A stretch of 64,000 nucleotides of DNA from Bolinopsis microptera. Taxonomy: Eukaryota; Ctenophora; Tentaculata; Lobata; Bolinopsidae. The stretch's first letter is position 1; each line of letters opens with the position of its first letter. The DNA lies in assembly GCF_026151205.1 (NCBI RefSeq), contig NC_087075.1, forward strand, positions 11,826,303 through 11,890,302. Reading direction: 5' to 3'. Shown here piece by piece: positions 12,018-54,763 of this stretch. The notes below the pieces were generated by a model that ran no database searches, was not told where the DNA came from, and saw only the letters and a program-made list of their open reading frames with translations. The translations under genes were made by a program, and so were the position numbers.

Positions 12018-12390
12018 TTCGAAAATTACAAACGTAAGTTGGCATTATTTTCAACTTGCACTAAAAATAAAATAAAAGCATAAGTCCTGGTGAAATTGAT
12101 ATGAGCATCGTACAAAATTTGTGCAATTTATAAGTTGTTGCGGAAGTAGCAGTAATAGGAAAATATTTCAGGTGAATAATAAAAGTACGGATGACTGGAG
12201 CGTTTAAGGACAAGGAATCACGTAGATTAGAAGATTACATTATATATTATTTTTAACTCAAACACAAATGTGCGATATTGGATATCTTTAAAATTTAATT
12301 TCATGTTTGATTAATTATTCATTCCTTGAGACACGTTGTTTGAATTCAGCAAATTTATTCTGTGACTTATCCATATTCTATGACCAATAT
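10761..12390. repeat. Segmental duplication, copy 2
   Basis: Direct duplicate of 6596-8254. It carries a SINE and exons 5-7 of the kringle/aerolysin-like gene. Relative to copy 1 it has a TGA near the end of the last large exon (12015-12017). Confidence 0.93.
10831..11150 (+). mobile_element. tRNA-derived SINE, copy 2
   Basis: Same head, body and (ATT)n tail as the SINE at 6656-6960. It was carried along in the segmental duplication rather than inserted independently. The B-box-like region here reads GGTTGCAAGTTCGAATCC, closer to a tRNA consensus. Confidence 0.8.
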
Positions 12391-31444: not shown

Positions 31445-34400
31445 TCAGCATTGATCTTTATCATCTTCTGTCATGGTAGAGTTGTCAACCTATAAACATA
31501 GTAAAGATAACTGCTTGTATCATAATTAGTCGCTCCAACGCAGTTTTACTACACATATTACGTGCGGGAGGTGTTAGTTTGGAAATCTTTTTAATCTTTA
31601 CACAATTATAGTTGTTATTATAGTTGTTATTATAGTTGTTAATATAGTTGTTATTATAGTTGTTATTATAGTTGTTATTATAGTTGTTATTATAGTTGTT
31701 ATTATAGTTGTTATTATAGTTGTTATTATAGTTGTTATTATAGTTGTTATTATAGTTGTTATTATAGTTGTTATTATAGTTGTTATTATAGTTGTTATTA
31801 TAGTTGTTATTATAGCTGTTACAATAGTTGTTATTATAGTTGTGTGTAAAATGGATTGCGGAAAAGAAGGAGGGCTAAAATAGCAAAAATAGCTGGCTTA
31901 TGTGAACGATCCCTTAGTACAACAGGTTAATGAGGCTGAAGGTAAGCATCCATTAATCAAATTTAGCATATCAATCAATTGATCAATTAAACAATTTATT
32001 AAAACAAGGCGACCTAATTATAAGTTATACATACCATGGCTGTGCTGTCGTCTTCTAGCACTAGTTTAGCAATTGTAGCGTCTATATCAATCTTCAGTTG
32101 AACTGATGCGGACATGTCAGGAATAAGAACGTCTATCAGTTTCACTATCCCGAACACTATGTGCTGAATACATTGTTTTAAATAAATAAATTAGATTGAT
32201 TTATAGATGTGGATACTCATGGGGAGGTGATACATATTTGTATTATAGAACGCGGTTCTTTTGCGATAGTCAAAACGCGACAACTAGCGCTGGATGGCGA
32301 CAACTAGCGCTAAATATATATGTTCGATAATTGTCGCTATCCAGCGCTAGTTGTCGCCATCCAGCGCTAGTTGTCGCCATCCAGCGCTAGTTGTCGCTAT
32401 CCAGCGCTAGTTGTCGCTGGCTATGCGACACTGTCGCACGCGATAGTTTGCGATGGCCAGCGCAACTGGCCATCGCAGAAAACAGTTCGATAACTAGCGC
32501 TGGATAGCGACAACTAGCGCTGGATAGCGACAACTAGCGCTGGCCAGCGCTGGCCAGCGCTAAGCGATAGCCAGCGCTGGCCAGCGCTGGCCATCGATAT
32601 CCAGCGCAAAATTTTCGCGCTATTACCCGTCAGCTAGCGCTGGCCAGCGCTGGCCAGCGCTAACCAGCGCTAACCAGCGCTAGCCAGCGCTAACCAGCGC
32701 TAACCAGCGCTAGCCAGCGCTAGCCAGCGCTAGCCAGCGCTAGCCAGCGCTAGCCAGCGCTAGCCAGCGCAATGTATCAAAAGACAAAATCATATACTTG
32801 CGATATTACTCGGATGATGATTAATCACTTTACACTCGACTGTCACGTGACTTTTTTAACCCATTCTCTGACTCTAGCTGGTACTGAACAACTTTTCGAA
32901 ACCCTAACCCTCTAATCTGATCCCAACCCTAACCCAATCCTTAACAAAAACATATGCTGAAACCCTAACCCTAACGAGAAATTAGACTAACTTCCTTATA
33001 CGGTCATATCACGTGATCGATACAGTTTTTCGCCAATATCTCGTCAGGAGAGCATTTTAACCCTATGTCATGGGGGTTGATTCGGAATTAGCGTTCGAAA
33101 ATACATTGCATCGATTGAAGTTGGTTACAACAATCGGGGGCCTTTTAGAACAATCTCGAAGATCGACTGTAGAGTGATTTAGCACGCTCGATATTAGTAT
33201 TACTCGTCAGCCAGCGCTAACCAGCGCAATATAGTTGCGATATTACTCGTCAGCTAGCGCTGGCCAGCGCTGGCTAGCGCTGGCTAGCGCTGGTTAGCGC
33301 TGGCTAGCGCTGGTTAGCGCTGGTTAGCGCTGGTTAGCGCTGGCTAGCGCTGGTTAGCGCTGGCCAGCGCTAGCTGACGGGTAATAGCGCGAAAATTTTG
33401 CGCTGGATATCGATGGCCAGCGCTGGCCAGCGCTGGCTATCGCTTAGCGCTGGCCAGCGCTGGCCAGCGCTAGTTGTCGCTATCCAGCGCTAGTTGTCGC
33501 TATCCAGCGCTAGTTATCGAACTGTTTTCTGCGATGGCCAGTTGCGCTGGCCATCGCAAACTATCGCGTGCGACAGTGTCGCAACTAGCGCTGGATAGCG
33601 ACAACTAGCGCTGGATGGCGACAACTAGCGCTGGATGGCGACAACTAGCGCTGGATAGCGACAATTATCGAACATATATATTTAGCGCTGGCCAGCGTTA
33701 TCCAGCGCTGGATAGCGACAACTAGCGCTGGATGGCGACAACTAGCGCTGGATAGCGCTAGTTGTCGCCATCCAGCGCTAGTTGTCGCGTTTTGACTATC
33801 GCAAAAGAACCTAGAACGCTTGTAACATTTGTAACTCCCCCCCCCCCCCCCTTTGAAGGCCCCGAATTATTTTCTTTCAAAATATGCAACTTATTGGCAA
33901 CTTGGCAAAACCATTGGCTGAATAAGTTAAACGCTAAAACTGTTTAACAATTCTATAAAAAATCCGTAGTATTAGTTAATCAGTGAGAGAATAGGACATA
34001 AGCCGATCAGCCCTTATTATTTTAAGTAGATTGAGTAATTAAATATTAAGTAATTATTAATAAGTAACAATTAATTGAGTAATTATAAGTAATAACCTCA
34101 AAGAATATGACGAATAGAAGCTGAACGGCGAATAGTTTCCAGAAGAAGAAGTTGTGTTTCCCGTCTCGGTCCCTATACGACCAATACCTGCCAAACATGT
34201 TCTTTTATAATCGTACCCAGAAAAAGAATTAAGATGTAAATCATATTATAATTCAGCCTACTAATTTCTTCATAGAATACCATTTGCAATTGATTAATAA
34301 TTCAGCTAAATAATTGTATAAGAATATAAATAATAAAAATACAAGGTATAGAAATAGCTTTTAAGTTCTGCTAAAAAGTGCTTACTTCTGACTAACGGAG

Positions 34401-37400
34401 GCAGCTGTAGGCTTAGTGTCAGTAGAAGCATAATCCACATATTTTACCTTCCATTCTGTTCCCCTTGAACTTAACAATAAACTCAATGATTTCTGTCACA
34501 TGTTTACAGATTTATAGTTAAACTAATACCGGCCCTTCCCGGCTATTCTCACACACACACACACACACACACCCAGACACCCAGACACCCAAAAAACCAG
34601 ACACCCGGACAAATTAACAACTTTACCTGCAGGTTATATTGAGTCCGGTCATCTCCGGAGAAGCGTAGGCTAAACTGAAGTTAACATATCCACTGAGCCG
34701 GTCCTGTAGACCTTGGGCTTGAAATTCGTCTGCATTCTGTGGAATACACTGTTACCATGGTAATATAACTATAGTAACACCATAGTAACAGGAGTACAGA
34801 TTTAGTCAAACAAAGCAATCTAATATGATCGACCCACTCAGAAGAGCGAAAAAATATAACTAAAATAAATAATATTTATAAGATAACACACTTTAACTTA
34901 CAATATTTTCTAAGTTTTTGATCAGATTATTGATTTCAAGGTTGAACTAACATCGTAAGCGTAGAGCATCATAGGAAGGAAATCAGAGGAAAAAGCAATG
35001 ATACCAGCGTTACAGACTATAGCTATCTTCCCTACAGCGGACAGGATATCGTACCAAATACCTGACAAATACTGTTACCAGGTTACCAGGTTACCAGGTT
35101 ACCAGGTTACCAGGTTACCAGGTTACCAGGTTAGCAATAATACCCACGTTACAGACTATATCTATCTTCCCTACAGCGGACAGGATATCGTACCAAGTAC
35201 CTGACAAATACTGTTACCAGGTTACCAGGTTACCAGGTTACCAGGTTACCAGGTTACCAGGTTACCAGGTTACCAGGTTACCAGGTTGCTATAGCTATCT
35301 TCCCTACAGCGGACAGGATATCGTACCAAATACCTGACAAATACTGTTACCAGTTGACACACGCGCGAAGCCGGCCCCTCTCCAGCCGGCCGGCCAGCCG
35401 GCGTGCACGCTTCGCGTGCACGAGAGGTATACAACGTGTAGCAAGTTACCAGGTTATCAGGTTACCTGGTTATCAGGTTACCAGGTTACCAGGTTACTAT
35501 GTTTAAGTTGATAGTTGTAGAACTAACAGTACTTATTTTACCCCGTTATCATCTCCACACATTTAACCCTGGTATGTAGCAGGGATACCTAGAGGCAGGA
35601 AGAGCATCTTCATGCTTTCCTCTTGTGAGCCACCAGGTCCAGCCTATCTTTAAAAAGGAAAAAAAGAAAAAATTACCTATATCCCTGCACTTGAGGCCAG
35701 TAGGGCGTCTTAATTGGGCCACGAACTTGAACGCGTCCAATCGTATCTCCAGAAGGTTGTTGACAAGAGCTAGAAGGGGAGCAAGAGGCCACGCTGCTAC
35801 AAATATCGTCACAAATCCATACTGCAGGGGTTAGGTGAGATTGATATTGCATAGTTATGAAAGGTTACAGACGTCACCACTAGGTACGGACGGGGCTCAT
35901 TGTAAAATTTGAATGACGACTAGTGAGATTCTATATTGAACATGAACATGAGGTCTCTCCGTACGTGATCAATCAGCATCAAATCTAAAATACACTTTAC
36001 TGGAAGAAGTTGGTTCACTATCTACAAAATATCAATATTTCCAACTCCACATGATCCTAAAATACAATGACACCTGAATAATCATCTCAAGGCGTAACTA
36101 TGGTAACTTGTAGTGTAACTATGGTAACTTGTAGTGTAACTATGGTAACTAGTAGTGTAACTTGTAGTGTAACTATGGTAACTTGTAGTGTAACTATGGT
36201 AACTTGTAGTGTAACTATGGTAACTTGTAGTGTAACTATGGTAACTTGTAGTGTAACTATGGTAACTTGTAGTGTAACTATGGTAACTTGTAGTGTAACT
36301 ACTAACTATGGTAACTTGTAGTGTAACTATGATAACTTGTAGTGTAACTATGGTAACTTGTAGTGTTACTATGGTAACTAGTAGTGTAACTATGGTAACT
36401 TGTTAACCTGTATATCACTCCAAATACTCCGCAAACACGTCTCTGGTCTCACCCTAGTTCGAAAGGCTCTCCCCCGGGGGGCCCTTGGTTCCCCTTTTTT
36501 TTTCCCTTTTCACTTCTTTTTTATTTTTCTTTTTAAAAACCTGCAGGGATGGGGTTTTAATGGAATTTTTAAACCCCACTTTTTAACCATCATTCTGATT
36601 AAATATTTCAAAAATTGTGATTTTAAATTTTCCCCTTTTCGGTTTCCCGAAGGTGTTTGCTGTTGTTTACTCCCGGAAATATGTGCCGCTTTTCCTTTTC
36701 CTTTTAAAAAAACAGTAGAATAAAAACCTGTCCCAGAAAGCCCCCTTTAAATATTGAAACTATGGAACTGTTTTTGTAACTTGGCCCCCACTCCCTGTCC
36801 CCAGCCCCCCTTTATTTTTTGGTAACTATGGTAACAAATATTTAACAATGGAACATACCTGTCCCAGCAGCCCCCTTTTTATTTTTAAAAACTATGGTAA
36901 CTGGGTTTGTAACTAGGGTTTAACCCAAGTATTGTAATTTGGGTTACCCCTACCTGTCCCGCGGGCCCCCTTTATTTTTTGTATATGGAAAACGGGTTTG
37001 TAAACTTGGTAAACTCCCGTCCCAGCAGCTCCCTTTATTTTTGTAACAAGGGTAATGTATTGTAACTAGGGTAACCCTCCCTGCCCAGAGCCCCTTTATT
37101 ATTGTAACTATGGAAACCTGGGTATTCCCAAATTGGGTAACTATGGTCAAAACCCCTGCCCCAGCGTCCCTTTATTATTGTAACTGGGGCCCCCTGTTTT
37201 TACTATTTTTAAACTAGGGTTTAACCTACCTTCCCCAGCAGCTCCCTTTTTTTAAATTTTTCCCTATGGTAAAAGTATTGTAACTTTTGGTAAACTCCCT
37301 GTCCCACCCGCTCCCTTTTTTGAAAATTTTTGGAAACCCAAAGTTTTTACTTTTTGAAAACTATGGTAACATTTACCGGCCCCAGAAAGCCCCCTTTTTT

Positions 37401-40400
37401 TAGTGACATGATAGGAAAAATTTAAACCCGGAAGAAGGGAAGGGAACTTTTTTTCAGTCAGTATGTTTCGCCACCCGGGGTACCCCAGTCGGAATAAAAA
37501 AAACCCTCCTGGGGTCAGTGTTTTTGGAATGTTTGGTTTTAATTAAACGGGTTGATATGTGGCAGCTTGTTCAGGAAGATACGGTAATCTACATCTTATT
37601 CTGTATATGAGCTCTTACTTCTTTATGTGAACTAGAAATCTCAGCTCGATCTTAACTTCACACATCGAGTGAACCGAGCACAAAATCTCGTTTAAATAAA
37701 AGAAATATTTTCAAACCGACTGAAATTATACACCAACCTGGTGGACAGTCCTCCATCTTAACCCCGAACACTAGGGGGTGGTTGCCGGGGTAACCGTTAA
37801 ACCTGGGGATATGTAGAGGTGGTAACACTAGGGGGTGGTTGCCGGGGTAACCGTTAAACCTGGGGATATATAGAGGTGGTAACACTAGGGGGTGGTTGCC
37901 GGGGTAACCGTTAAACCTGGGGATATATAGAGGTGGTAACAGTTAACACTAGGGGGTGGTTACCGGGGTAACCGCTAAACCTGGGGATATGTAGAGGTGG
38001 TAACACTAGGGGGTGGTTGCCGGGGGTAACCGTTAAACCTGAGGATATATAGAGGTGGTAACACTAGGTGGTGGTTGCCGGGGTAACCGTTAAACCTGGG
38101 GATATATAGAGGTGGTAAAACTAGGGGGTGGTTGCCGGGGTAACCGTTAAACCTGGGGATATATAGAGGTGGTAAAAGTCTCAGCAGTGCTCATTGTTTT
38201 GTGGTGTTCTCAGTTAGTCCGCCAGGGATATCTTATGCTCGAATCTGTTACTATGGTTACAAGTTGTGTTACTATGGTAACAAGTTGTTTTACTATGGTA
38301 ACAAGTTGTTTTACTATGGTAACACTCATTAATCTCATAGACTCCATTATCTGAGTTTAATTTGTTTGTACAGTTTTGCATACAACTCACTTTCCTTTAA
38401 AGAAACCAATGTATACAAGAGAACTGTAGAAGTTGAACACTTCGAACACATATCTTCTTATGGTTAGAGTATTCTCGTATTCTAACTGAGTCTTGTAGTT
38501 CTCCCACTCCGTCATTGTTACGGCAAACTTTCCGTAGTACTGAAATTCGATGGCAAATAGTGGACAGAACTATAAGCCACTGAACACTATATTTCATTAA
38601 GCTATGAGACGCAGCATTGAAGATTTGCAGCATTGAAGTCTTTTCAGCTAGGGTTTAGACTGACTATACCTGATACCAGGTTACAAATTAACCATCCCAG
38701 AACACATTTCACTACTGGAAGATCGTAAGAAGTTCCAATTTGCTTATATTTTACGTTATGAATCACGTGCACTACAGCTGTTTACCTTGCTCATAATGAT
38801 AATGAGAGTTAGGCTCATAATCCCCGCACTAAACAGATGAAAACCACCGTGCATATCTCTTCATACTGAGGAAGATGTGTTAATGTGGCTCTTGTGTTGG
38901 TTACCAGGTTACCAGGTTACCAGGTCACCAGGTTACTAGGTTATCAGGTTACCAGGTTACCAGGTTACCAGGTTACCAGGTCACCAGGTTACTAGGTTAC
39001 CAGGTTACTAGGTTACCAGGTTACCAGGTTACCATGTTACCAGGTTACCAGGTTACCAGGTTTAAAAAACAATTATACAATAAGGGTTTTGGGGGTCAGA
39101 AGTCCTCAAAAGTTGTAAGATGAAATCAAAGCTGTGTGTAAACTGTATAATTTAGTATACAGTTTAATTTAGTTTTAATTTATTAAGACTAAACCTACCT
39201 TGGAATATCGAAGAGAGCCAGGTAAACAGCCAGATCGTATACAATAACAGCAACAGCAAACATCAATACACACGCTAACTGAAACATATTACTTTTCTCA
39301 CTCCAATTAAAGTTTGTATACTGTTATCTCGCTGGTATTCAGGGTTTCAACTTTGAAGATTTATTTAATAGTGGAAATAAAGTCATATCTATTATTATAG
39401 CATATATATTATAGCACTGAAAGTAGTAAGGAAGCGTGGGTATCGCTTACTAACAATGAATAGAATTAGAGTGAAAGTAGCAAGGAAGCGTGGGTATCGC
39501 TTACTAACAATGAATAGAATTAGAGTGAAAGTAGTAAGGAAGCGTGGGTATCGCTTCCTCTTGGTCATGTAAGGTTCATGTCTCCTAGTCCGGGGGTTGT
39601 ACTCCCAGCTGTCACAGGTCTGCGTGTAAGTTGGCCTCACTTGCTCCTGAGAATGTGTGAGTATTGATGATGATTTGATTTAAAACTTTTATCAAATAAT
39701 ACAGAATTATACAGTAATGAAATTATATAAAAACCAAAATAATGGCGACAGAGAATGTTTAAGTTGTGAAACTTGGTGAGGGGGTCCCGGACCCCAACCG
39801 CCAAACGGTGCCCGCGGGGCAGCCACGCCCATATTTGGTCCAAATTAGGCCCAATTAAGCCAAATATCCTGAACATGCTCAGAAACCAGATTTTAGGTGC
39901 TTTTCTTGTAGCTAGTGGTCCCTTAAACTCGTATATGAATTTTCATCCAGATTGGACAAAAAATGACTGAGTTATGAGCCAAAAACCATATGACCATATT
40001 TGGGCATACGCACCAAATTTGATAGATTTTGGCCCATAAATTGGTCAAATATCAATATTTTTGAACGAAACTAACTTTATATGGAAGGTAAGCCTATACT
40101 ACACATTCTCTATGATTATCAGCTCAGTATCTACCTAACTGTGGATTCTGTGTTCAAATAATCGCAAAAAATGAACAATAGGGTTTCAATATTTTTACAT
40201 GAAATTTTCAGAATCAACGTAGAATCGCATTTGGACCTTAAGTTTTGTATTGGAATTTTGAGTTAGGCCTTTAAAAAATTTGGCGGCCAAATTCTGAAAA
40301 ATGCCTGGCAAATTTTGGTAACTCACATCAGATTCATCAAACTTCAGGACTCCCCAGATATGGAAATATTTCAGTTGTTACTATGGTAACAAGTTGTGTT

Positions 40401-43400
40401 ACTATGGTAACTCACATCGGATTCATCAAACTTCAGGACACCCCAGATATGGCCCAGCAAAGCCTGCTTTCTCTTCCATGACTCTAAAAAGTAAGCAACC
40501 CAAATAGACATGAACACGCAAAAGAACAGTGTAGCTCCGTTGTTCATCGCCATCGCTGCCTTAGGAAGGTTAATGTTAGGCTAAAGTGAAAGTGAAACAG
40601 AAAGTGAAACAGAAAGTGAAACAAGAAAGTCTGGTGTTCACTGACATCGCCATATTAACATTTTAAGAAGATTGATGTTCAGGGTTTTTCTCAGTTCAAT
40701 TAATTAATTTTCTTCATACATTTTTGTTTATTTGAAAAAGTTATGGCATGATCAATGATCACTTACACTAACTGGTACTACCTGGGCGATGCTACAAATA
40801 CGTTAGGCTAAAGTGAAAGTGAAATAAAAAGTGAAAGTGAAACACTAATTACCTTACACTAGCTAGTACTCTAGTACTACCTGTGCGATGCTGCAGATAT
40901 CGGAGATGTAATAAGGTGGGAACCCCTCGTCTTCACACGCAGGGCACATCATATACGTCTTCTCAGAGTTACAGATGTGCTTGCTTACATAGTCGTCACC
41001 CAGTCCTGTGCAGTCAGTGGATTAGAAATTATAAAGATCTTTACAATTTAACACATGTGTCTGATCAAAACTGAAATTTTAAATGAAAATTATTCAACCA
41101 AATTCAGTAAAACTAAAAAATTAAAGTGGTCCTAATATAAAACCTTTAGGATACTCCAAAACAAATTTTTAATTATTATTTGCCAAATCATTATAAAATT
41201 AAATATTGTTATACCCATCTGACTGTATCCGAATACAAGGACTCCAACGATAGCAGGGATAAACAGAGACTGTGTGTAAAACCCTGAAAGGAGAATATGG
41301 GAGACAATTAGTTCGATTGTAGAAAACTTATTACAATACTTATTACACACCAAACTTCTGTATTATATAATGTTATAATAAGCTCGCAATAAAGTTTTGT
41401 CAAGTTTTGTCAAGTTTTGTCAAGTCTTGACAAAACTAAACTTAAGTTTCCCTACCCGTCCATGCGAAGTACATAGCCACCTTCTCCCCGAAGTACATCC
41501 GTATCAAGTTGAGAGGTTGGTGTTTGTTCCACCTCCTGAAGCTGGCCCAGTAGAACCTCAGGAGTTGCCGGTGGTTGGAGGGCATGTCGTGTGCTTCTGT
41601 AAAGTGAAAAAGAAAGTGAAACAGAAAGTAAAACAGAAAGTGAAACAGAAAGTTGAGAGGTTGGTGTTTGTTCCACCTCCTGAAGCTGGCCCAGTAAAAC
41701 CTTAGGAGTTGCCGGTGGTTGGAGGGCATGTCGTGTGCTTCTGTAAAGTGAAACAGAAAGTGAAACAGAAAGTGAAACAGAAAGTGAAACAGAAAGTGAA
41801 AAAGAAAGTTGAGAGGTTGGTGTTTGTTCCACCTCCTGGAGCTGGCCCAGGCCCAGTAAAACCTTAGGAGTTGCCGGTGGTTGGAGGGCATGTCGTGTAC
41901 TTCTGTAAAGTGAAACAGAAAGTGAAACAGAAAGTAAAACAGAAAGTGTAACAGAAAGTTGAGAGGTTGGTGTTTGTTCCACCTCCTGAAACTGGCCCAG
42001 TAGAACCTCAGGAGTTGCCGGTGGTTGGAGGGCATGTCGTGTGCTTCTGTAAAGTGAAACAGAAAGTGAAACAGAAAGTAAAACAGAAAGTGAAAAAGAA
42101 AGTTGAGAGGTTGGTGTTTGTTCCACCTCCTGGAGCTGGCCCAGTAAAACCTTAGGAGTTGCCGGTGGTTGGAGGGCATGTCGTGTGCTTCTGTAAAGTG
42201 AAACAGAAAGTGAAACAGAAAGTGAAACAGAAAGTGAAACAGAAAGTTGAGAGGTTGGTGTTTGTTCCACCTCCTGAAACTGGCCCAGTAGAACCTCAGG
42301 AGTTGCCGGTGGTTGGAGGGCATGTCGTGTGCTTCTGTAAAGTGAAACAGAAAGTGAAACAGAAAGTAAAACAGAAAGTCGAGAGGTTGGTGTTTGTTCC
42401 ACCTCCTGAAGCTGGCCCAGTAAAACCTTAGGAGTTGCCGGTGGTTGGAGGGCATGTCGTGTGCTTCTGTAAAGTGAAACAGAAAGTGAAACAGAAAGTA
42501 AAACAGAAAGTGAAACAGAAAGTTGAGAGGTTGGTGTTTGTTCCACCTCCTGAAGCTGGCCCAGTAGAACCTCAGGAGTTTCCGGTGGTTGGAGGGTATG
42601 TCGTGTGCTTCTGTAATAATCAAATAACTTATACATATAGATTCGTCCGGGTGTTTGAGTGAAATATATTATTTATTACCCTTGTTCAGGTACATTTTTC
42701 CAGTTTAATTTCGCTACATTTTTTATATCTCTAACTTGACTCTATTCCAATGCCTGATTTTTGTATACATCCTCAATAACTTTGCAGAGAATTTCATTAA
42801 CCTGTCTCATAAGGACCATCGTGTAGAGGATAAGCTGCTTTATAAGTACCGTTAGCAACTAACTCATCCACCCCAAAGAACTCCTTGTTACCCTCCTTGT
42901 GGTAAGGAGCTTGCTGTAGAAGTCGGTACACCTGCAAAGTTACTATGGTGACTACTACTACTTCAGTTGTTACTATGGTAACAAGTTGTGTTACTATGGT
43001 ACACCTGCAAAGTGGTAAATCAGTTAGTATTATCAGAAAATATATTACAGTAAGAGAACTGCGGTTTTTTGTATCACATGTGCTAACGGTGATATGAGAA
43101 TATGTTGAATGCTAAACTTATTTCTTCTAGCAACTTAACTATTGAACAAATTAATAAGTTTATTCAATTTTATGAGTGTGAATATTAAATAACATTATTG
43201 ATTCTAAATTCTAATTCAAAGATTAAATTTCAGTTTGGCGCTTGGCTCCATGCTTTGTAGTAAGGAGGACATCTCTAGAAGGATATGTCTGGGATATGCC
43301 GCGTTTAACAAATACAAGAAAGCTTGGAACCATAAGATCCCTCTGAGCAAGAGGCTTCTGTTGTATGAGGCTCTGGTAGTATCCGTTTTAATGTACAATT

Positions 43401-46400
43401 CATCTTGCTGGGCTGCCCCTAAATCAGTATTGGAAAAACTAGATATTGCTCACAGACGTCATCTGCGATCAATTTTGAATTACAAATACCCTCACATCAT
43501 CTCCAACAAGAACTTGTACAAACGCTGCAATAGCGAACCATTGTCAGCTAAAGTGACTCGTAGTCGGTGGAGGATGCTCGGACATGTACTGCGTGGGCCT
43601 ACAGATGGCCCAGCCTATTCGTCGCTTGTTTTTGCTGTCAACACCTTACAGCTTCAAGGGCGGCGTGGAAGACCGCAGTCAAACCTTTTCTCACTGATTC
43701 TACACGACCTTAGTGTCCGAAAATTATCGTTAAATAATTTATGTGATTTGGACTATTTAACGTTAATTGCTCAGAATAGAGTTAAATGGAGAAGTATGCA
43801 AATTGCATGACTTTTGTTTGAGAAAGATTAGGGGACAGAAATGTTTACTTTGTTTACTATCTGTTTCTTAGAGCTTTTGTTTATATATATATTTTACTAT
43901 GGTAACAAGTTGTGTTACTATGGTAACAAGTTGTGTTACTATGGTAACAAATTGTGTTACAATGGTAACAAGTTGTGTTACAATGGTAACAAGTTGTGCT
44001 CCTATGGTAACAAATTGTGTTACAATGGTAACAAGTTGTGTTACTATGGTATCAAGTTGTGTTACTATGGTAACAAGTTGTGTTACTATGGTAACAAGTT
44101 GTGTTACTATGGTAACTCAGTGCTCTTACTACAGTGCTTCTTTCGGAAGTAGTGAAGAAGTCCTTCCTGTCGCTCCCCATGTATTTATCTTTATGTTTCG
44201 TCAGGAAAGGGGCTTTTACATACTTTGGAAAGAAATTATCCCTCATTGTCGTGTAAAATGGTACCTGCACATGGTAGAGAACTTTTAGGGGTTCAAAGGG
44301 TTTAAGTACTTTGAAATCTAACTGAAACTTGAAATTTCAACGAACCTTCACTGTCACTAATGGTTGTGGTGCAAAACATGTTTCTTGATTTATTTCCTGT
44401 CACGATTATGTTTGTAGCACGTCGTGACCCCCATTGTATCACGTCGTGACCCCCATTGTATCACATCGTGACCCCCATTGTATAACGTCGTGACCCCCAT
44501 TGTATCACGTCGTGACCCCCATTGTATCACGTCGTGACCCCCATTGTATCACATCGTGACTCCCATTACTTAAAGTACATTATGTTAAATACCTTCCCGT
44601 GGAGGATGTAGAATATTGTGTCCTGTATCCAGGTCCAGAACCCTGTGTCTTCAGTGTCCTCTTCTTCTTCCTGACTCATCTAGGATGATTTAGATTACAT
44701 CTTATGCTTAAAAGTGAAGACCGCAAACGAACCCGAAACATTTCATGCCAAAAACCTCAACATACAGATGCCGTGAGGTAAATTAGTAAATTTAATATTA
44801 CAATGAACCTGGCACAGAATCCATGCACGGAATACGTTACCGGTTACTTAGTTACTTAGTTACCGGTGACTGGTCGTTGGAGAGTGATCCAGACTTTGAG
44901 GATGCAGTTTTAGACATCCCTTTAGTTTTAGACATCCCTTTAGTTTTATTTACGTTTCCCTGGCTGGTATCCTGTAAGGGCAAGTTGTAAATTTATCCAT
45001 TTTTAAGGCATGATTATAAGCATAGCTTAGACGTACTTATCAGTTATTACCTTTATCATGCCAAACATTGTACAGTAGGCAGTTTATAGTTACCATAGTA
45101 ACAAAACTTGTTACCATAGTAACAGGACTTCAGAGTGGCAGTTCAATAGTCAGAGTCACTATTTTACTATAACTACCCATTAAATGTAGCTATTTCCCTA
45201 CCTCATTCTTCTTAGTGAAATCCCTCCTGTCGTACTTCAGTGGCTTCTCAAAACCAAACTTCTCCGCCCACTTCATCATCACATGCTCCGGGATATTCAG
45301 CTTTACCACACGAAACATGTCACCCGTCACCCTGAAATCCTGGGATATTCAGCTTTACCACACGAAACATGTCACCTGTCACTCTGAAATCCTGGGATAT
45401 TCAGCTTTACCACACGAAACATGTCACCTGTCACCCTGAAATCCTGGGATATTCAGCTTTACCACACGAAACATGTCACCTGCCACTCTGAAATCCTGGG
45501 ATATCCAGCTTTACTACACGAAACATGTCACCTGTCACTCTGAAATCCTGGGATATTCAGCTTTACTACACGAAACATGTCACCTGCCACTCTGAAATCC
45601 TGGGATATTCAGCTTTACCACACGAAACATGTCACCTGTCACTCTGAAATCCTGGGATATTCAGCTTTACCACACGAAACATGTCACCTGTCACTCTGAA
45701 ATCCTGGGATATTCAGCTTTACCACACGAAACATGTCACCTGTCACTCTGAAATCCTGGGATATTCAGCTTTACCACACGAAACATGTCACCTGTCACTC
45801 TGAAATCCTGGGATATTCAGCTTTACCACACGAAACATGTCACCTGTCACTCTGAAATCCTGGGATATTCAGCTTTACCACACGAAACATGTCACCTGTC
45901 ACTCTGAAATCCTGGGATATTCAGCTTTACTACACGAAACATGTCACCTGTCACTCTGAAATCCTGGGATATTTAGCTTTACCACACGAAACATGTCACC
46001 TGTCACTCTGAAATCCTGGGATATTCAGCTTTACCACACGAAACATGTCACCCGTCACTCTGAAATCCTGGGATATTCAGCATTACCACACGAAACATGT
46101 CACCCGTCACTCTGAAATCCTGTTTACACACATTAACGCTAAAAAGAGCTGTTATATGTATTTGGTTGGTTAAGGGGTTTTCCAAAACTCCAGAGGCTCG
46201 TGAAGTGTCTTACACAACCTCTCCGAGCCCAAGATCCGTAGTGCGTGGTGAAGAGCCACACCCTTCTCGAGGTGCCACTGTTAAGCTTAGTAGCCTGTTC
46301 TGGGTGATTCCAGTTAAAACAGGTGAACGGTAACAGAACACTGCGGCTCTAGACCAGTATAACAGGTCGAAAAATATAACCGGGACATCTGTCTCGTTAG

Positions 46401-49400
46401 GACTGCATGCGGTTCATCGGGTGCGAAGGGCCAGCATCCCTTCCACCTCAAATAACAACGCTACTGAAACAACAAGGAAAAACCGTGATAGGAGTGATTC
46501 TCGGAATGCAAGGAACGGTGATTCCAGTATGAAGCGGTCTGGGCAAAGCCGCAAGGACCCCAGGACGCAGATGAGAACGAAGAGGTCACCTTATTGCCAC
46601 AGTGTTATTAGTTCACACATCACCAACGTGAACGCCGAAAAAGGGAGATCATCCCCTTCCAATTTTATAAAAAACAGACCTAACTTGGGGACGTGGAATG
46701 TTCTGTCTCTGGAAAGCAGCACATCGAAGCTCTATGAATTGTCACAGAATGTTTCTAAGTACAAGTTGGATGTTCTGGGTCTTACGGAAACACATAGACC
46801 AGGTACTGGTGAGGAAATGCTGGATAATGGGTCATTGTTCATTTATTCAGGGAGATCGGATGGGCATAGGAGGCAGGGTGTTGGGTTGGTTTTGTCAAAA
46901 ACCGTCAAGAATTCGCTTATCTCTTACACCCCTATGTCGGAGCGTATCCTAGCAGCTAGACTACATAGTCGGCACATCAATATTTCTGTTGTGGTGGCCT
47001 ATGCTCCTACGGAGGATGCGCAGGATAGCGTTAAGGACGATTTTTATCAGCAGTTGGGTGGATCATTCGACAGCCTACCCAGTCACGACGTGAAGATTCT
47101 TCTTGGTGACTTCAACGCCAAGATTGGTCGCGACAACTCATCTTGGTCTGGGGTAATTGGAGGAGAGTCCTTACATGAGACGTCAAGTAATAACGGACTT
47201 CGGCTGTTGGATTTCTGTGCCATGTATCAGTTGACAGTTGGGGGAACATTGTTTCAACACAAGGACATCCATAAAGGCACCTGGAGGTCTCCCAATGGCC
47301 GTACTGTCAATCAGATAGATCATGTTTGTATCTCTACCAAGTGGAGTCACTCTCTTCTTGATGTTCGAACTTATAGAGGTGCAGACATAGGCTCTGATCA
47401 CTACTTGGTCAAGAGTCCTATGAGGATCAAACTGATGGGAATCAAAAAGATACAAGGGTCACATAGAAAAGCACCAGCTATCGAGCTTCTGCGTGACCAA
47501 TCTAAGGTGCAGGAGTATTGCATCGCACTGCATAACCGATTCAGTGGTCTACCGGTGGAAGAGAGTCTGGATGGAGAGTGGGAGTTGGTCAAGGAGGGCA
47601 TCAGGGAGGTTTCTTTGGAGGTTTTGGGTCAACGCCCGCGCCGGAGGAAGAAGCAGCACTTGTCACAAGAGACAAAGGATCTCATCACGGAGCGGAGTAA
47701 GGTCAAGCAGAAATGCCCAAGTGATGGATTCAATAGATCTGAGTATTCTCTTGCTAATAAGCGTGTTAAGAAGAGCTGCAAGAAGGACGATGAGAACTGG
47801 GCTTTACGGGTTGCAGCCGATCTGGAAACAGCTTCTTCACACGGTCAGCAGAGGGAGGTCTGGCAGATGATCAAGTCCTTGTCAGGCAAGAAAAGTCGGA
47901 AGTCAACTGCTGTCAGAGATAAAACCGAGAAGTTGATTTCTGACCCCGCTGCTCAACGAAAACGATGGGGTGAGCACTTCGCTGAACTACTAAACCCGCA
48001 GATAGGGGACGTGGACCTTTCAGACCTAGACAGTCTAGAGGTCGCACCATGTTTTCCGTATCTGAGTGATAGTGATATACCCCCTAGCAGAACAGAGATC
48101 TCTGAAGCTTTTAAGAGTCTGAAGAATCACAAGAGCCCTGGAATTGATGAAATTTCCAACGAACAGCTGAAGTATGGGGCTCCTGGTCTTTTAGACAGAG
48201 AGAAAACTGTTTGAGAAACTGTTTGCACGTGTATGGGAGACAGAGAATGTGCCAGAGGATTGGGTTAAGGGTATCATTGTTATTGTCCCAAAAAAGGGTG
48301 ATACATCATACTGCTCGAACAACAGGGGCATTACCCTACGCTCCACGGCATCAAAACTCTATCAGATAATAGTGTTGCGACGGATGAATGCGGGGCTTGA
48401 AGAACTGCTCCGAGAGAATCAGTGCGGGTTCAGGAAAAACAGGTCTTGCATAGATCAGATTTATTCGCTCCGTACTATTATTCACAACAGCATTGAGTTT
48501 AATCTCCCCCTTTACATAAATTTTGTTGACTTTAAAGCGGCATTCGATTCACTTAATCGGGAGTTTATCTGGAAAGCTTTCAGTCATTATGGCTTGCCTT
48601 GTAAATACATTCGCATAATGCAAGCATTCTTTTGCGGCACCGTCAGTGCTGTCAGACATAATGGCGAGCTCTCTGAGTGGTTTGACGTTACATCTGGTTC
48701 TGGGCAGGGGGATATTCAGGGTCCACCTATCTTTAATGTTTGCATCAACCTGCCTGCGCAGCGGGCTGAGGATAACAAAGTGTTGTCACACGGGGCAGTG
48801 CAAAATTACTTGGATTTCTACCGCTTTGATAAATGACTACAAGAAGATGGGGAGTTAATCTTGTTGATTTATATAATATAGATTATTTATTCTTTAGTGT
48901 AGATTAACTTTATTTTTATATATTTTACCAAGTGTGAAGGATCAACCATACGTTATTGATATTTTTGAAATATTTAATGATAAATTGATATAATAATAAA
49001 TGATTGTAATATTTTTATTGAGGCACATGCCACCCCGTCGCGGGTTTACTACTACAAGAGAGCTACCACCAGCTCCGGTCAGGATACAGTCGTCCTGGAT
49101 ACTGACTATGCAGATGACTTGGCTATCATGGACAACACCAAGGACGGTCTCCAGGAGACGACTGATCTTTTATGCAAGTATGCGGCTCAGGCTGGCCTCA
49201 GAATCAATGCGAAGAAAACAGAGGTTATGGCCATCGGCAAGAATACATCACAGAGGCCATATACTGAAGCATCAACAGTGGACATTACAGTAGGAGACAC
49301 GGCTATCCAGCAAGTCAGCAACTTCACTTACCTTGGGTCGATTATATCAAGTGATGGGACTATTGACCGGGACTTGTCTGCACGGATCCAGAAAGCCTCA

Positions 49401-52400
49401 GGAGCATTCAATCAGCTCGGTAATATTTGGAAGAATCGCAATATCCAAACTAACACCAAAATACGGATATATGTTGCAGCGGTTCTAACAATATTACTTT
49501 ATGGAAGCGAAGTCTGGAACACTACTTCAAAGCAACTACATCGCTTCGAAGTTTTTCATCAAAACTGTTTGAGGAGAATCCTTCGAATTAAGTGGTTCCA
49601 CCGGACAAGCAATGTTCAAGTGTTGGAGCGGGCAAGAATAAACCCGGTTATAACCTACATCAGTGCCAACCGTCTTCGCTGGTTTGGACATGTTTCTAGA
49701 ATGCCGGACACCAGGCTACCAAAGTATCTATTTGATTGGACACCTGCTCACGGCCGAAGATCACGTGGGCGGCCAAGAAAGAATTGGCGAACCTGTGTCC
49801 TAGAAGACGCAGTAACATTCACAGGAGATCCAGACATTGTATTTGATAAGGTCCGAGAGTTGGCAGGAAACCGAAAGCACTGGAGAGAGATGATACGACA
49901 TAAGCGGCAATTCCTTGGTGCAGGCCACTCGAATGATTGAGGAGACCTTATCAAGTATCAAGTAAGTATATGTATTTCTCCCCAAACAAACGTGAAAATG
50001 AATCCTCTAACTCTCTAAAATGAAAATAAGCTGAACTGGAAACCTCACATCGAATCACTAAATAAAAAGTAAGAAGTTTACAGATACACTCCGTTATGGC
50101 CAGAAAGCAGTAGTCCCTAGCTTGTCAACGTCCAGTAGCCAAAGGAATCAATCGATCTTTGACAGCTCATTTGTAGTGATGGGGCCTCGATTGTGGAACA
50201 TCATTCCCGCAAACCTGCACCTTATCGAGGACCCCCTACGTTTCAAGTCATTGTTGACGGAGTTTGTTACATCTATTCCGGACGAACCTCCTGTTACTGG
50301 ATATTGTTGCCAGAACGGGAATTCGTTATTGAACTGGAGCGCAGAAAAGACAGCAACTTCGCTGCACGGGTGGTCAGCCGTTCTGATGACCCGATAGAGG
50401 ATCTATGAAGCAACCCCAAGTAACCCAAGCAAGTAAGTGCTTGTGGACGTATTAACTGCCTATCCGGGATATTAAGCTTTACTACAAATTTGAAATTTCA
50501 GTTTTTCTGACCAAGAGTATGATTGCCACAAGATAGAAAATGACAAACTCTTGATCATTGAAAATAACTTTGCAACAGTAATGCAAATGGTAACCATGGC
50601 GACGACACAATTACTGCAAACAGTTTACTGTTTAGACGTACTAACACAATGTTTAAATCCATGCTCTTTTTAATAATAACAAAATTTACGGAATTATTTA
50701 TGCATAAACCATATGAGAAATGTTTAATAGAATATTCAAAAACCTCAAACTCTAGATTCAGATCTAGCTTTTTTACCTCAAACTCTAGATTCAGATCTAG
50801 CTTTTTTACAATATCGTGGAAGTTTTTTCTGTTTCTGATGTGCTTTAGTTCTGATCTGGCGAACTCTGTTTCACAGTCCTCCTGAGAATTTTAAAATTAG
50901 CTAATTAACCTTAACGAAATCGAAATGAAACACATCGTACATACATGATACAAACTGAACTAAAGAACTACAAGTTATTGTATCAATGCTGATTTGTTGA
51001 TTATAACCGATAAAATATGCATTATAAAGATATTTGTTACACAGAAACTTGTTCAACAAATTACAGCACCATAGTAAAATTAATAAAATCCAGCTAAAAC
51101 ATCCAAGATCTCCACAACCGATAACACAGTGTAAACACAGTGTAAACACAGTGTAAACACACCCACAGTAATATCACGAGGGGATCCACTTGTTGAGACA
51201 AATTACAGACAAACCCACCTCCACCTTAATAGTAACATCACGAGGGGATCCACTCGTTGAGACAAATTACAGACAAACCCACCTCCACCTTAATAGTAAC
51301 ATCACGAGGGGATGTTACTCCTGGTACCCCTGATCCACTTGTTGAGACCTGGCTCCTGCTCAACTCCGGGTCTGGTCTGTGAAGTGGGGCTCTGTATACT
51401 AGCACAAAATCTGTGGGTATTACTGCCATTACTAATATTACTTATTTTACGACCATTACTAATATTACTAGCCTAAACTCTGATTAACGGAAAATCATCA
51501 GAATATAAGAAGAGATTTAAAAGTAGAGTAACAGGCGTTCAGAAACACGCACTTAATAGTAGAGTAACAGGCGTTCAGAAAAACGCACTTAATAGTAGAG
51601 TAACAGGCGTTCAGAAAAATGCACTTAATAGTAGAGTAACAGGCGTTCAGAAACCCGCACTTAATAGTAGAGTAACAGGCGTTCAGAAAAATGCACTTAA
51701 ACGTAGAGTAACAGGCGTTCAGAAAAACGCACTTAATAGTAGAGTAACAGGCGTTCAGAAACACGCACTTAATAGTGGAGTAACAGGTGTTCAGAAACAC
51801 GCACTTAATAGTAGAGTAACAGGCGTTCAGAAACACGCACTTAATAGTAGAGTAACAGGCGTTCAGAAACACGCACTTAATAGTAGAGTAACAGGTGGTC
51901 CCTGAGTAAAAAGCAACATCTCATGCAGTCACAAACACAGTCCCTCTTTTGATGTGAACCACTGATTGTGTGACCTCAATACAGTAAATGAGTAAAACCT
52001 TACTGGGCGGCTCAGACTGCCATTCCACCGAATCTTTATCTAGGTTTATGAACATGATACTGATAGTCTGGGGTCCTAGGTAAAGTAAAACCCTGATTTA
52101 CCGCGGCTATTTCCTTACTTTAAATAGGGCTTAACATACGTAAACAAACCCTGATTTACCGCGGCTATTTCCTTTCCCCCAAACTCCGCGGTAAATCGGG
52201 GTTTGCGGTAAATCGGGGTTTTACTGTATTCATAAACACGCTTTACTTACACGTACACTTACCAATAGACTTATCTGGGTCTGATCGGAAGGAGTAACCT
52301 TCTCCAGGCTTATACCACGTGATGCCCATATAAGGGTATACTCAGCACGTGATGCCCATATAAGGAGTACACTTACCAATAGACTTATCTGGGTCTGACC

Positions 52401-54763
52401 GGAAGGAGTAACCTTCTCCAGCCTTATTCTTGTTCTCCGCCGAAAGCTGAAATAAAACAGATGTAAGTAAAACTGCAGACTATTATATAGTTAAAACTAC
52501 TTATAAGTAGAATGAGGAAAATGTTGTTTATATATATTTAAACAATTTATTAAAAAAATAAAACGTGACTATTTCTTGTTTGTAAAATTTGATTTTTAAT
52601 GGCCAAAATTGTTGGTGACAGTTCAACTTGAGCAAACATTCCACAATTCTTATCTGAGCCTTTTAAAACCCACCATTACTCTCAAATATGTGTCATCAAT
52701 AGCGTTATAATGGTCTCAACCAAAAGCTAACACAGCATAAGAATACGACTGTGAACTGATGAAACTTCTGAACTTTGACTCAAAGTTAACTCCCCGTTAA
52801 GGATGGATTAGTAGTAGTAACTAGTAATATTAATAGTAATATTACTAGTAATAGCTGGAATTGCATTGGTGGAAATGTAATTACCTACACAGTACCATAC
52901 ACTATATGTCTTGTCAGCAGCTGTATTGAGCAGCATTGTTGTTTTAATCAACTCAAAGTTAAATATTGACAGGATTTTCATTCATTAGCTGAACTCTTGT
53001 ATATTTTCAAATGACAATTTTCAAGTTCATTTGCATATTGGAAGATTAACTGTCCACGAAGAAGTAAAGTAAAGAATAAATAAAGTAAAGAAGAAGTAAA
53101 GTAAAGAAGAAGTAAAGTAAAGAAGAAGTTAAGGTCAAGTATGCACTATAATGTGCTGTTGAGATAGTTGGAAATAACCATCGTAGAAATCTATCATAAC
53201 TAGCTATAATATTTATAAGAGTTAACTATCGTAAATGCGATAGTTAACTTTTTCGCAACGTGTATTTGTAGCCTAGCAACCTGAATGAGCGTATCCTAGC
53301 AACCGGCACTTACTTTTATCTTGCATCCCATACTAAGAAGAGTTGTCATACGATATATAGCCATCACCTCATTGCAGCTCTTCTGCCACTGTTGGTCCGC
53401 TTCAAAATTATCACCTGACATTATCAATCAGTTGAAGCACAAGGAAATAATGTTGAAACACATGGAAATAATGTTGAAACACATGGAAATAATGTTGAAA
53501 CACAAGGAAATATTTTAAACTCTTGGTTAAACTTAAAGAAGTTTAGAATGTTTTGGAACACTGGCATGGAATACACATGAAAAAATTGGGCATGAAATTT
53601 ATAAAATTATCTTACCATAGGATCTTCCATTGAGATGGTTTAGTTCGCCCTGTTATTTGATAATATTAATTGTTTTAAATTTTATGAAAAGTAGCTGAGA
53701 AATACCTAAATTTTAAAACTGACGAGGTTGTTGGAAAATGTAATACAAATGCTCCAGCTTTCAGAATAAAATCAAATTTTATGACACATATTAAAAGGTT
53801 TTGCAGCCAAACAAAATTAACGCGTTAAACAAAAAATTTATAGAGATAGTTTATCATTCAGATCTATTCGTAAAAAGCTTGGTAGCTTCTATGTTCTTTA
53901 CTATGTTCTATATAATATGTTCTATTATGTGTATTGTATATTGTATAATGTATATTGTATATAACAACTTACGTCTGGCTGCACTGTGCTTCCCAAACCA
54001 GCAAATCCTGCGGCAAAAATTCAAATTAATTATAAATGGGGAAAAATATGTGTAGTTGTAAAAGTCAAGCCAGTGCGCATTGTTACAGATCTTTCAGAAC
54101 AAGTATAGTATCTCAATATGTTTATCTATCTGGTGTTAATACAATATGGTCTTTCAAGGAAACTTTTTACCTTACGTAATGCCTCGTCATGTCACTTCTT
54201 TCTTTTATATTATTGCTGTATTGTATATATTGTGAGAGTTTCAAATCTCATTGGTGTAAAAAGAGCACCTCTCATTGGTGTAAAATGTAGATACAGACAG
54301 ATCTTACCTCACATTGGTGTGAAATGTAGATGCAGACAGATCTTACCTCGCATTGGTGTAAAATGTAGATGCAGACAGATCTTACCTCTCATTGGTGTAA
54401 AATGTAGATACAGACAGATCTTACCTCACATTGGTGTGAAATGTAGATGCAGACAGATCTTACCTCGCATTGGTGTAAAATGTAGATGCAGACAGATCTT
54501 ACCTCGCATTGGTGTAAAATGTAGATGCAGACAGATCTTACCTCTCATTGGTGTGAAATGTAGATGCAGACAGATCTTACCTCGCATTGGTGTAAAATGT
54601 AGATGCAGACATATCTTACCTCGCATTGGTGTAAAATGTAGATGCAGACAGATCTTACCTCGCATTGGTGTAAAATGTAGATGCAGACAGATCTTACCTC
54701 GCATTGGTGTAAAATGTAGATGCAGACAGATCTTGTTCTTTTTTAAATATACTCTCTTCCAAC
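31445..54763 (-). CDS. Anoctamin (TMEM16 family) membrane protein
   Basis: Anoctamins are multi-pass Ca2+-activated chloride channels or phospholipid scramblases. Minus-strand exons, each with GT-AG borders and mostly checked phases, run (high-low): 54763-54698, 54007-53973, 53414-53314, 52446-52377, 51422-51283, 50881-50777, 45339-45202, 44971-44864, 44679-44593, 44264-44130, 42931-42802, 41596-41456, 41283-41215, 41005-40881, 40555-40416, 39646-39509, 39278-39199, about 38860-38786, 38539-38391, 37802-37738, 35821-35677, 35061-34952, 34736-34627, 34187-34097, 32163-32035, 31489-31445 (TGA). Diagnostic segments are [105 protein letters not shown] and [12 protein letters not shown]. The exon(s) for TM6-7 should lie in the poor-quality stretch 35.8-37.7 kb and were not found. 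The start codon is uncertain, and exons above 53.4 kb are tentative. Confidence 0.88.
31545..31916. mobile_element. MITE (family of 12444-12630) with internal repeat expansion
   Basis: The outer parts, CACATATTACGTGCGGGAGG and TGGCTTATGTGAACGATCCC, match the family ends. The ACAATAGCTATTAT interior is replaced by about 20 copies of a 12-bp TTATTATAGTTG unit (31607-31842). Confidence 0.8.
32254..33811. mobile_element. Foldback element, copy 2, with 8-bp target duplication
   Basis: Same termini, arms and core as 14102-15755 (GGTTCTTTTGCGATAGTCAA ... TTGACTATCGCAAAAGAACC). It is flanked by TAGAACGC at 32246-32253 and 33812-33819. It lies in the intron between the last two large anoctamin exons. 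The centre again has a CCCTAACCC tract and GGTTGATTCGGAATTAGCGT. There is no coding sequence. Confidence 0.93.
34998..35510. repeat. Duplicated acceptor/exon-start segments separated by (GGTTACCA)n
   Basis: The anoctamin exon starting at 35061 (ATTTGGTACGATATCCTGTC on the minus strand) is repeated with its acceptor at about 35130-35210 and 35286-35350. Arrays of CCAGGTTA lie between the copies (35077-35131, 35216-35287, 35441-35505). Confidence 0.9.
36094..36410. repeat. Tandem TGTAACTATGGTAACTTGTAG repeat
   Basis: About 15 copies of a 21-bp unit in an anoctamin intron. It contains the palindromic GTTACYATRGTAAC word found in several other introns of this gene. Confidence 0.95.
36460..37550. 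other. Probable low-quality consensus over a degenerate repeat
   Basis: The text is full of homopolymer runs (CCCCCGGGGGG, TTTTTTTTTCCC, GGGTTTTAA). It repeats a blurred unit CCTGTCCCAGCAGCCCCCTT + TATTTTTGTAACTATGG with random-looking indels. Neighbouring repeats are clean. At least one anoctamin exon expected between 35.8 and 37.7 kb is missing, which fits a base-calling or assembly problem here. Confidence 0.7.
37752..38178. repeat. 57-bp tandem repeat copying an anoctamin acceptor and exon start
   Basis: About seven copies of AACACTAGGGGGTGGTTGCC + GGGGTAACCGTTAAACCTGG + GGATATATAGAGGTGGT. Read on the minus strand, each copy holds CCCCAG followed by the [11 protein letters not shown] codons of the exon at 37802-37738. 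Only the copy nearest 37802 continues into the rest of the exon. Confidence 0.95.
38898..39062. repeat. (GGTTACCA)n array
   Basis: About 20 imperfect 8-bp copies in an anoctamin intron. The same unit is seen at 31007-31103, 35077-35505 and 29602-29640. Confidence 0.95.
39418..39560. repeat. 54-bp tandem repeat of an anoctamin exon end with its donor
   Basis: About 2.6 copies. On the minus strand each copy encodes [17 protein letters not shown] and ends in the donor-like GTTAGTAAG. The unit is a multiple of three, so read-through stays in frame. Confidence 0.92.
40318..40460. repeat. Duplicated exon end and donor, separated by GTTACTATGGTAAC
   Basis: CTCACATCNGATTCATCAAA + CTTCAGGACNCCCCAGATAT occurs at about 40321-40363 and 40411-40452. 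On the minus strand it is the last 15 codons of the anoctamin exon 40555-40416 plus its GTGAGT donor. Confidence 0.92.
41500..42625. repeat. Eight tandem copies of an anoctamin acceptor plus exon start
   Basis: Each copy of about 120-150 bp reads, on the minus strand, a (TTTCTGTTTCAC)n polypyrimidine tract, CTTTACAG, then codons for [20 protein letters not shown] and [10 protein letters not shown]. Only the last copy (acceptor near 41597) continues into [16 protein letters not shown]. The whole array is open in two minus-strand frames over 390 codons, so skipping the splice would still not introduce a stop. Confidence 0.95.
43215..43810 (+). mobile_element. C-terminal fragment of a LINE ORF, relative of 5497-6516
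   Basis: The frame shows [40 protein letters not shown] and [11 protein letters not shown], and stops at TGA 43808. The sequence parallels the minus-strand element at 5497-6516 residue by residue. It lies antisense in an anoctamin intron. Confidence 0.85.
43893..44125. repeat. 21-bp tandem repeat TTACTATGGTAACAAGTTGTG
   Basis: About 11 copies in the anoctamin intron just downstream of the donor at 44129. Each unit contains the palindrome GTTACTATGGTAAC. Confidence 0.95.
44408..44575. repeat. 22-bp repeat TATCACGTCGTGACCCCCAT
   Basis: Seven to eight copies with the inner palindrome TCACGTCGTGA, in an anoctamin intron. Some copies read ATCACATCGTGAC. Confidence 0.95.
45332..46130. repeat. 52-bp tandem repeat copying an anoctamin acceptor and exon start
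   Basis: About 15 copies of GGGATATTCAGCTTTACCAC + ACGAAACATGTCACCTGTCA + CTCTGAAATCCT. On the minus strand each has CCCAG followed by the [17 protein letters not shown] codons of the exon 45339-45202. The unit is not a multiple of three, so only the exon-proximal acceptor gives the right frame. A final partial copy ends at about 46125. Confidence 0.96.
46421..49940 (+). mobile_element. Non-LTR retrotransposon with AP endonuclease and reverse transcriptase
   Basis: The first frame (to 48214) has a basic N-terminus and then an APE-type endonuclease: [54 protein letters not shown] and GSDHYLV. It ends in the RT fingers ([20 protein letters not shown]) with a frameshift at about 48195. The second frame (48249-48780) has [36 protein letters not shown] and [14 protein letters not shown]. 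After an insertion the third piece has [10 protein letters not shown] and a C-terminal domain, [20 protein letters not shown] and [15 protein letters not shown], ending at TGA 49938. It is inactive and lies antisense in an anoctamin intron. Confidence 0.93.
48782..49025. mobile_element. AT-rich insertion that splits the LINE reverse transcriptase
   Basis: Roughly 240 bases, about 80% A+T in the middle, lie between the RT block ending near PAQRAE and the YADD block. They have no counterpart in LINE coding sequence. Origin and exact ends are unclear. Confidence 0.6.
49985..50405 (+). mobile_element. LINE 3'-end remnant
   Basis: Contains [13 protein letters not shown], then [20 protein letters not shown], the tail motif of Jockey/CR1-like elements, in broken frames. 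It follows directly after the larger LINE and belongs to a different element. Confidence 0.7.
50741..50812. repeat. 36-bp duplication of an anoctamin exon end with its donor
   Basis: Two copies of ACCTCAAACTCTAGATTCAG + ATCTAGCTTTTTT. On the minus strand this is [10 protein letters not shown] followed by GTAAAA. The in-frame unit allows two alternative donors, 12 codons apart. Confidence 0.92.
51175..51312. repeat. About 64-bp duplication of an anoctamin exon end with its donor
   Basis: AGTAACATCACGAGGGGATC + CACTNGTTGAGACAAATTAC + AGACAAACCCACCTCCACCT is present in two full copies. On the minus strand each contains DVTIKVE and a GTGGGT donor. Confidence 0.9.
51524..51897. repeat. 36-bp minisatellite ACAGGCGTTCAGAAACACGC
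   Basis: About ten copies of ACAGGCGTTCAGAAACACGC + ACTTAATAGTAGAGTA, in an anoctamin intron. The minus-strand frame is open but shows no family similarity. Confidence 0.96.
52080..52232. mobile_element. MITE, family CAGTAAAACCCCGATTTACC
   Basis: The left end AGTAAAACCCTGATTTACCG and the right end CGGTAAATCGGGGTTTTACT are inverted repeats. An internal duplicate of the left end lies at about 52146. Confidence 0.85.
52258..52400. repeat. Duplicated anoctamin exon end and donor
   Basis: ACACTTACCAATAGACTTAT + CTGGGTCTGANCGGAAGGAG + TAACCTTCTCCAG occurs at about 52257-52309 and 52369-52422. CACGTGATGCCCATATAAGG words lie between. On the minus strand it is [14 protein letters not shown] plus the GTAAGT donor. 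Confidence 0.93.
54241..54731. repeat. 39-bp tandem repeat carrying a splice donor
   Basis: About 12.5 copies of CATTGGTGTAAAATGTAGAT + GCAGACAGATCTTACCTCG. On the minus strand each copy encodes [11 protein letters not shown] and contains AGGTAAGATC, a strong donor. The unit is a multiple of three and stop-free on the minus strand from about 54704 to 54426. Confidence 0.96.

Follow-up and report, generated by a model that had tools for sequence, protein, structure and literature searches.

The window analysed here is a 64,000-nucleotide stretch of the genome of the comb jelly Bolinopsis microptera (contig NC_087075.1, positions 11,826,303 to 11,890,302 of the forward strand). It contains a minus-strand anoctamin gene, running from 53414 to 31445, many of whose exon borders are tandemly multiplied together with their splice sites. 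The exons were chained by GT-AG sites in consistent phase and the borders were then checked against P0001, the best relative of the gene in the databases; they are therefore based on homology and not on RNA. The predicted protein matches the Pfam families PF04547 (Anoctamin) and PF16178 (Anoct_dimer). P0001, 71% identical over 69% of the query, is an anoctamin of 1074 amino acids, and the contig encoding it is presumably a spliced transcript because its 3656 bases hold a protein of this length. A Mnemiopsis leidyi protein is 89% identical to the protein of the gene over 20%.

The comparison with P0001 shifted the acceptor of exon E to 51413 and that of exon Q to 38869. Three exons of the first model, A (54698-54763), B and X (34386-34463), found no counterpart in P0001 and were excluded from every count. 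Exon Q contains one extra T in the window, giving a one-base frameshift, and the stretch 36460-37540, which spans exons T and T2, appears to be of low consensus quality, with inflated homopolymers and degraded repeats. Once arrays and insertions are collapsed, the median of the 24 introns is ~360 bp.

An initial annotation, made from the window alone, had claimed that a segment spanning the splice site is tandemly copied at a minimum of eleven exon borders, of which it listed ten. Nine of these ten do bear tandem copies, on exons supported by the comparison with P0001, whereas the border at 54698 belongs to a candidate upstream exon without a P0001 match; the donors of exons M and T were added in this study. 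We refer to these structures as mirages, the name that the amphioxus papers give to minisatellite-like tandem duplications of exon-intron boundaries (PMC3087553). In a strict test of 44 junctions, in which a stretch of 40 bases spanning the junction was compared with the sequence within 3 kb for a gapless copy at 80% identity, eight borders were positive, namely the acceptors of V, S, K and G and the donors of D, E, N and O (Table 1). Two further donors emerge from family detection, that of F (two copies of 33 bp) and that of T, which lies in poor sequence, and a 30-base junction word brings in the M donor.

Table 1. The anoctamin gene and its border arrays. Positions are those of the window; junction-word counts are given as window/second gene copy, as assembled.
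Feature	Position	Strand	Description	Junction words
Anoctamin gene	31445..53414	-	23 exons read directly, plus T and T2 in error-rich sequence; exons C to AA	
Exon V acceptor mirage (border 35061)	34992..35362	-	units of 133/139 bp, 3 copies, (GTTACCAG)n between copies	3/3
Exon T donor mirage	36802..37330	-	~66 bp x 8, poorly resolved sequence; exon T placed by means of P0001 and the second copy of the gene	0/6 (window sequence unreadable there)
Exon S acceptor mirage (border 37802)	37758..38185	-	57 bp x 7	7/6
Exon R array			second gene copy only; none extra in the window	1/3
Exon O donor mirage (border 39509)	39406..39565	-	54 bp x 2.6, in frame and open	2/1
Exon N donor copy (border 40416)	40309..40457	-	2 copies spaced 89 bp apart, separated (by eye) by a TTACTATGGTAAC minisatellite	2/2
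Exon M donor copy	40767..40896	-	2 diverged copies 99 bp apart; edges approximate; found by junction word	2/2
Exon K acceptor mirage (border 41596)	41501..42623	-	spacings of 132/144/162 bp, 8 copies	7/1
Exon G acceptor mirage (border 45339)	45282..46128	-	52 bp x 16; on reading the sequence, nearly all of the unit is exonic	15/6
Exon F donor duplication (border 50777)	50735..50817	-	33 bp x 2, in frame	
Exon E donor mirage	51158..51319	-	64 bp x 2.3; exact donor not pinned	2/17
Exon D donor duplication (border 52377)	52245..52434	-	114 bp spacing, 2 copies	2/2
39-bp array at candidate upstream exon (54698)	54256..54745	-	~12 copies; P0001 gives no support	

The extra copies lie on the intron side throughout, and by homology a single terminal copy is joined to the complete exon. 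This arrangement, already described in the initial annotation, holds at all supported borders. P0001 fits the terminal-copy joins at V, S, K, G, D, F, N and O. The E donor, where P0001 does not align, is the least certain border: it was placed at 51283 initially and at 51289 in our model, two GT sites 6 nt apart are both in phase, and the aligner ended exon E at 51271. The junction word misses the outermost copies of G and K and the F duplication. The outermost G and K copies have a different intron context, and the totals of 16 and 8 copies consist of 15 and 7 junction words plus the outermost copy read by eye.

Within the arrays, the copies differ by substitutions. The unit length is a multiple of 3 at D, F, K, O and S and shifts the frame at V, G, E and N, and the intron portion of the unit amounts to 2 bases at F, 10 at D and 13 at N. 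A single reading frame is open across all copies of the K array (408 codons), whereas a stop codon just upstream of the terminal acceptor closes the frame of exon G. The array at 54256-54745 also contains splice-like sites and has one frame open for 124 codons, and it recurs in the second copy of the gene described below. Dispersed minisatellites of the GTTACCAG and TTACTATGGTAACAAGTTGTG types lie near several splice sites (36094-36403, 38246-38324, 43894-44116 and 35074-35287) and recur, by eye, between the mirage copies at N, T and V. By eye, one of them also separates the J acceptor from a short copy of it (~16 bp).

The genome (264.65 Mb in 232 contigs) was searched and a second copy of the gene was found at C4:13.039-13.055 Mb, 1.2 Mb away; the surrounding interval, C4:13.0315-13.0584 Mb, matches 28.1-58.7 kb of the window in inverse order, with ~81-99% identity depending on the piece. 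The second copy represents a segmental duplication or else a haplotype misplaced in the assembly. Exon lengths are mostly equal between the two. Both copies look constrained, because in 16 exons only 15 of 1848 coding bases differ (10 synonymous changes, 5 not), whereas 209 of 8272 intron bases outside the arrays do. The frameshift in exon Q is absent from the second copy, where the sequence across T and T2 is also clean.

Most arrays are common to both gene copies and are still changing in length, since their junction-word counts differ (Table 1); as in a mirage, copy number thus varies between the two genes as assembled. At O, the second copy keeps a partial second unit without a donor. An array at exon R is found only in the second copy, which brings the border families of the two genes together to twelve. 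No intron gain by tandem duplication was seen at exon R, which is 149 nucleotides long with the same borders in both copies. Two larger elements of the window gene are also absent from the second copy. One is an insertion of ~3.8 kb in the F-G intron (46164-49966) with endonuclease- and reverse-transcriptase-like frames by eye, and the other is a palindromic element in the Y-Z intron. The palindromic element is dispersed, with AGCGCTGGCC-type units of 10/20 bp, and has two copies in the window (32260-33805 and 14114-15743).

Splice sites were scored with a matrix built from 112 junctions of sibling genes. At eight of the nine scored borders the intronic copies roughly equal the site joined to the exon in strength: the copies score 9.5-10.0 vs 10.0 at S, 7.8 vs 7.6 at K, 9.8 vs 9.8 at D and 5.6-7.7 vs 5.6 at G. 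The exception is the F donor, whose copy is weaker (3.9 vs 5.8). Cells should therefore face a real choice among similar sites.

Whether borders are favoured depends on how the copies are counted. At the level of bases there is no clear excess, as 8/44 junctions have a copy compared with 15.7% of 18,596 intron 40-mers; since the introns are filled with the arrays, the contrast in this coverage test is diluted. At the level of events, 10 of 14 long-unit families lie at borders against 4.0 expected (p ~0.0007) under a null in which units are placed randomly in the collapsed introns or across one border. When one dispersed element is left out, 3.5 of 13 families are expected at borders (p 0.00014). 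Manual curation reduced the 16 detected families to these 14: two pairs were merged, M was left uncounted, and T was moved from intron to edge on the strength of the second gene copy, family detection itself having called the T array intronic with exon T outside its exon list. These p-values are uncorrected for the gene having been picked for its pattern. Because it was so chosen, the fair test of a border excess lies in other genes.

For this purpose 13 anoctamin locus groups were collected, a sample that excludes eight single-stretch loci (L001-L008), and the second gene copy and g13 (weak hits) were set aside, leaving 11 siblings. Their exon ends are approximate, being taken from cross-species alignment, and the models of g5 and g6 are weak. 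Of the 28 families detected in these genes, 7 were flagged at a border, with 5.8 predicted on the basis of unit length and intron size (p 0.35). Five of the flagged families were borne out by junction words (two in g1 and one each in g8, g9 and g10). The arrays of g8 and g10 are probably common by descent, leaving four independent cases. The flagged family at exon 6 of g9 turned out to lie on a false exon made of minisatellite, and no junction copy was found by junction words for the one in g7. Four of the 11 siblings carry mirages. The sibling arrays include an acceptor array of ~30 units of 65 bp, another acceptor array whose copies are spaced 31/38 bp apart, a 43-bp donor array present in 9-14 copies in two genes related to each other, and an acceptor that is copied 161, 616 and 777 bp upstream of itself.

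Beyond the anoctamins, two genes were sampled. The PF00118 locus L038 has no long-unit family (nine C1 matches taken as exons by their hidden Markov model ends; 68 N), and a kringle-domain gene at 8.4-12 kb of the window, with exons set by eye, has one, which is intron-only. A doubled myosin-head segment (L039, C3:9154012-9154485) was rejected, as it looks like a pair of alternative exons and not a mirage. As the siblings show, border copying is not private to this gene; elsewhere the border share is near chance, and it is the density here that stands out. The initial annotation had argued that ordinary minisatellites would not favour borders so consistently. The event count in this gene agrees with such a preference, but the coverage test and the siblings are near expectation, and the conclusion that ordinary minisatellites cannot account for the pattern was not supported.

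We consider it likely that the arrays are mirage minisatellites, i.e., local tandem duplications whose unit happens to cross an exon-intron border. A duplication across a border would leave the exon intact and add a partial exon to the intron, and it would be tolerated as long as splicing uses the copy attached to the intact exon. The remaining copies would then fall in the intron and be spliced out, and the array could thereafter grow and shrink as any minisatellite, its copy number presumably being altered by slippage or unequal exchange. Duplications within an exon would usually break the protein and be removed by selection. Because the introns are short and the exons many, a fair share of random duplications must strike borders. 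From the sequence and its fit to P0001, we infer that the exon-joined copy is the one used in splicing. Two observations weigh against this explanation. The G unit has only 2 intron bases, so that the proposal leaves unexplained how up to 15 similar acceptors upstream would be skipped; and random duplication accounts for the 10/14 border families (vs 4.0 expected) only if the gene is a selected tail of the distribution.

That excess, and the total of twelve border families in the two genes, would be expected if duplications arose more often at borders than elsewhere through a mutational process linked to splice motifs or to exon borders that are transcribed. The F duplication, which shares just 2 bases past the exon end, GT, fits GT microhomology. 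We regard such a process as unlikely, because the intron share of the unit varies from 2 bases at F to 10 at D and 13 at N, the siblings lack a clear excess (five confirmed of the 7/28 flagged), and the gene was selected for its pattern. The wider proposal, that tandem duplication in ctenophores is drawn to borders by a process linked to splicing or splice motifs and that this gene is its extreme, is in our view improbable as well. A different account is that the copies are retained by selection because they serve as decoys, as alternative splice sites or as in-frame variants of the protein. The similar site scores at 8/9 borders, the units in multiples of 3 at D, F, K, O and S, and the 408-codon open frame of the K array point in this direction, but the units at V, G, E and N shift the frame, the copy numbers differ widely between the gene copies and do not suggest a maintained function, there is no extra R copy in the window, the O border of the second copy yields a single junction word, and P0001 is without such inserts where it aligns. 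Selection of this kind is thus very unlikely to be the cause. The least probable origin, an artefact of assembly or sequencing, would be compatible with the error-rich stretch at 36460-37540, with the one-base frameshift in exon Q that the second copy lacks, and with that copy being a misplaced haplotype. It hardly agrees with the substitutions among copies within the arrays, with the recurrence of the arrays at a separate locus, or with the unrelated arrays in the siblings. The copy numbers themselves could still be off.

The structure is already known from lancelets. In the amphioxus study, mirages are described in the globin genes BflGb6 and BflGb9 and in Adh3, at both acceptors and donors, with units of 10-160 bp and many copies with AG/GT; the copy number of BflGb6 varies between haplotypes (6 vs 3), and Adh3 data and globin reverse-transcription PCR suggested regular splicing (PMC3087553). 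Somatic instability has been reported for amphioxus Adh3. The arrays described here resemble the amphioxus mirages in that the unit spans the boundary, acceptors (V, S, K, G) and donors (D, E, F, M, N, O, T) are both affected, the extra copies are intronic, and one copy is the authentic edge (here by homology, with E unpinned). They differ in occurring in a ctenophore and not a chordate, in numbering about a dozen in one gene, in their size, which reaches 17 donor words for the second copy of the gene and, in one sibling, ~30 acceptor units, and in that regular splicing is here presumed. The study of lancelet PGBD5 describes tandem repeats at splice sites, mentions Adh and troponin C, and suggests that splicing is undisturbed, for Adh and troponin C as well (PMC3902484); those repeats have few copies and belong to another phylum. 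In potato, a report describes a tandem duplication over an intron-exon boundary that gave a new intron. It shares the boundary-crossing duplication, whereas in the present gene existing introns were lengthened at constant exon lengths. No report of a ctenophore mirage was found in our literature searches, which left out most subscription papers. What is distinctive here is the high density and the paired gene copies.

Several other features were noticed in the window and the genome. The kringle-domain gene (Pfam) is a plus-strand multi-exon gene at 8443-12033 whose intron-only duplication is ~132 bp, and reading frames similar to it recur at 6.8-7.9 kb. A unit of 277 bp is repeated 11.8 times at 22796-26072, and a gene with a Laminin_G_3 domain at 28676-29362 contains six in-frame 21-bp repeats within its reading frame. 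Elsewhere in the genome, matches to dynein heavy chain at C3:8952495 and C1:6101794 lie in open frames of 3357 and 3703 codons, which suggests that both genes are largely intronless; ~15 other dynein heavy chain loci, by our own grouping, are split.

The present results extend a lancelet phenomenon, at high density, to a comb jelly, an animal only distantly related to lancelets. With 2 vs 17 donors or 15 vs 6 acceptors, the two near-identical gene copies represent a natural experiment on how a splice site is chosen among almost identical ones. Should a border-linked process prove to be true, arrays of up to 17 donors or ~30 acceptors would be natural tests of how the spliceosome selects a single site when its neighbours are almost the same. 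Border arrays may also mislead automatic gene models, and they offer a plausible route to intron lengthening.
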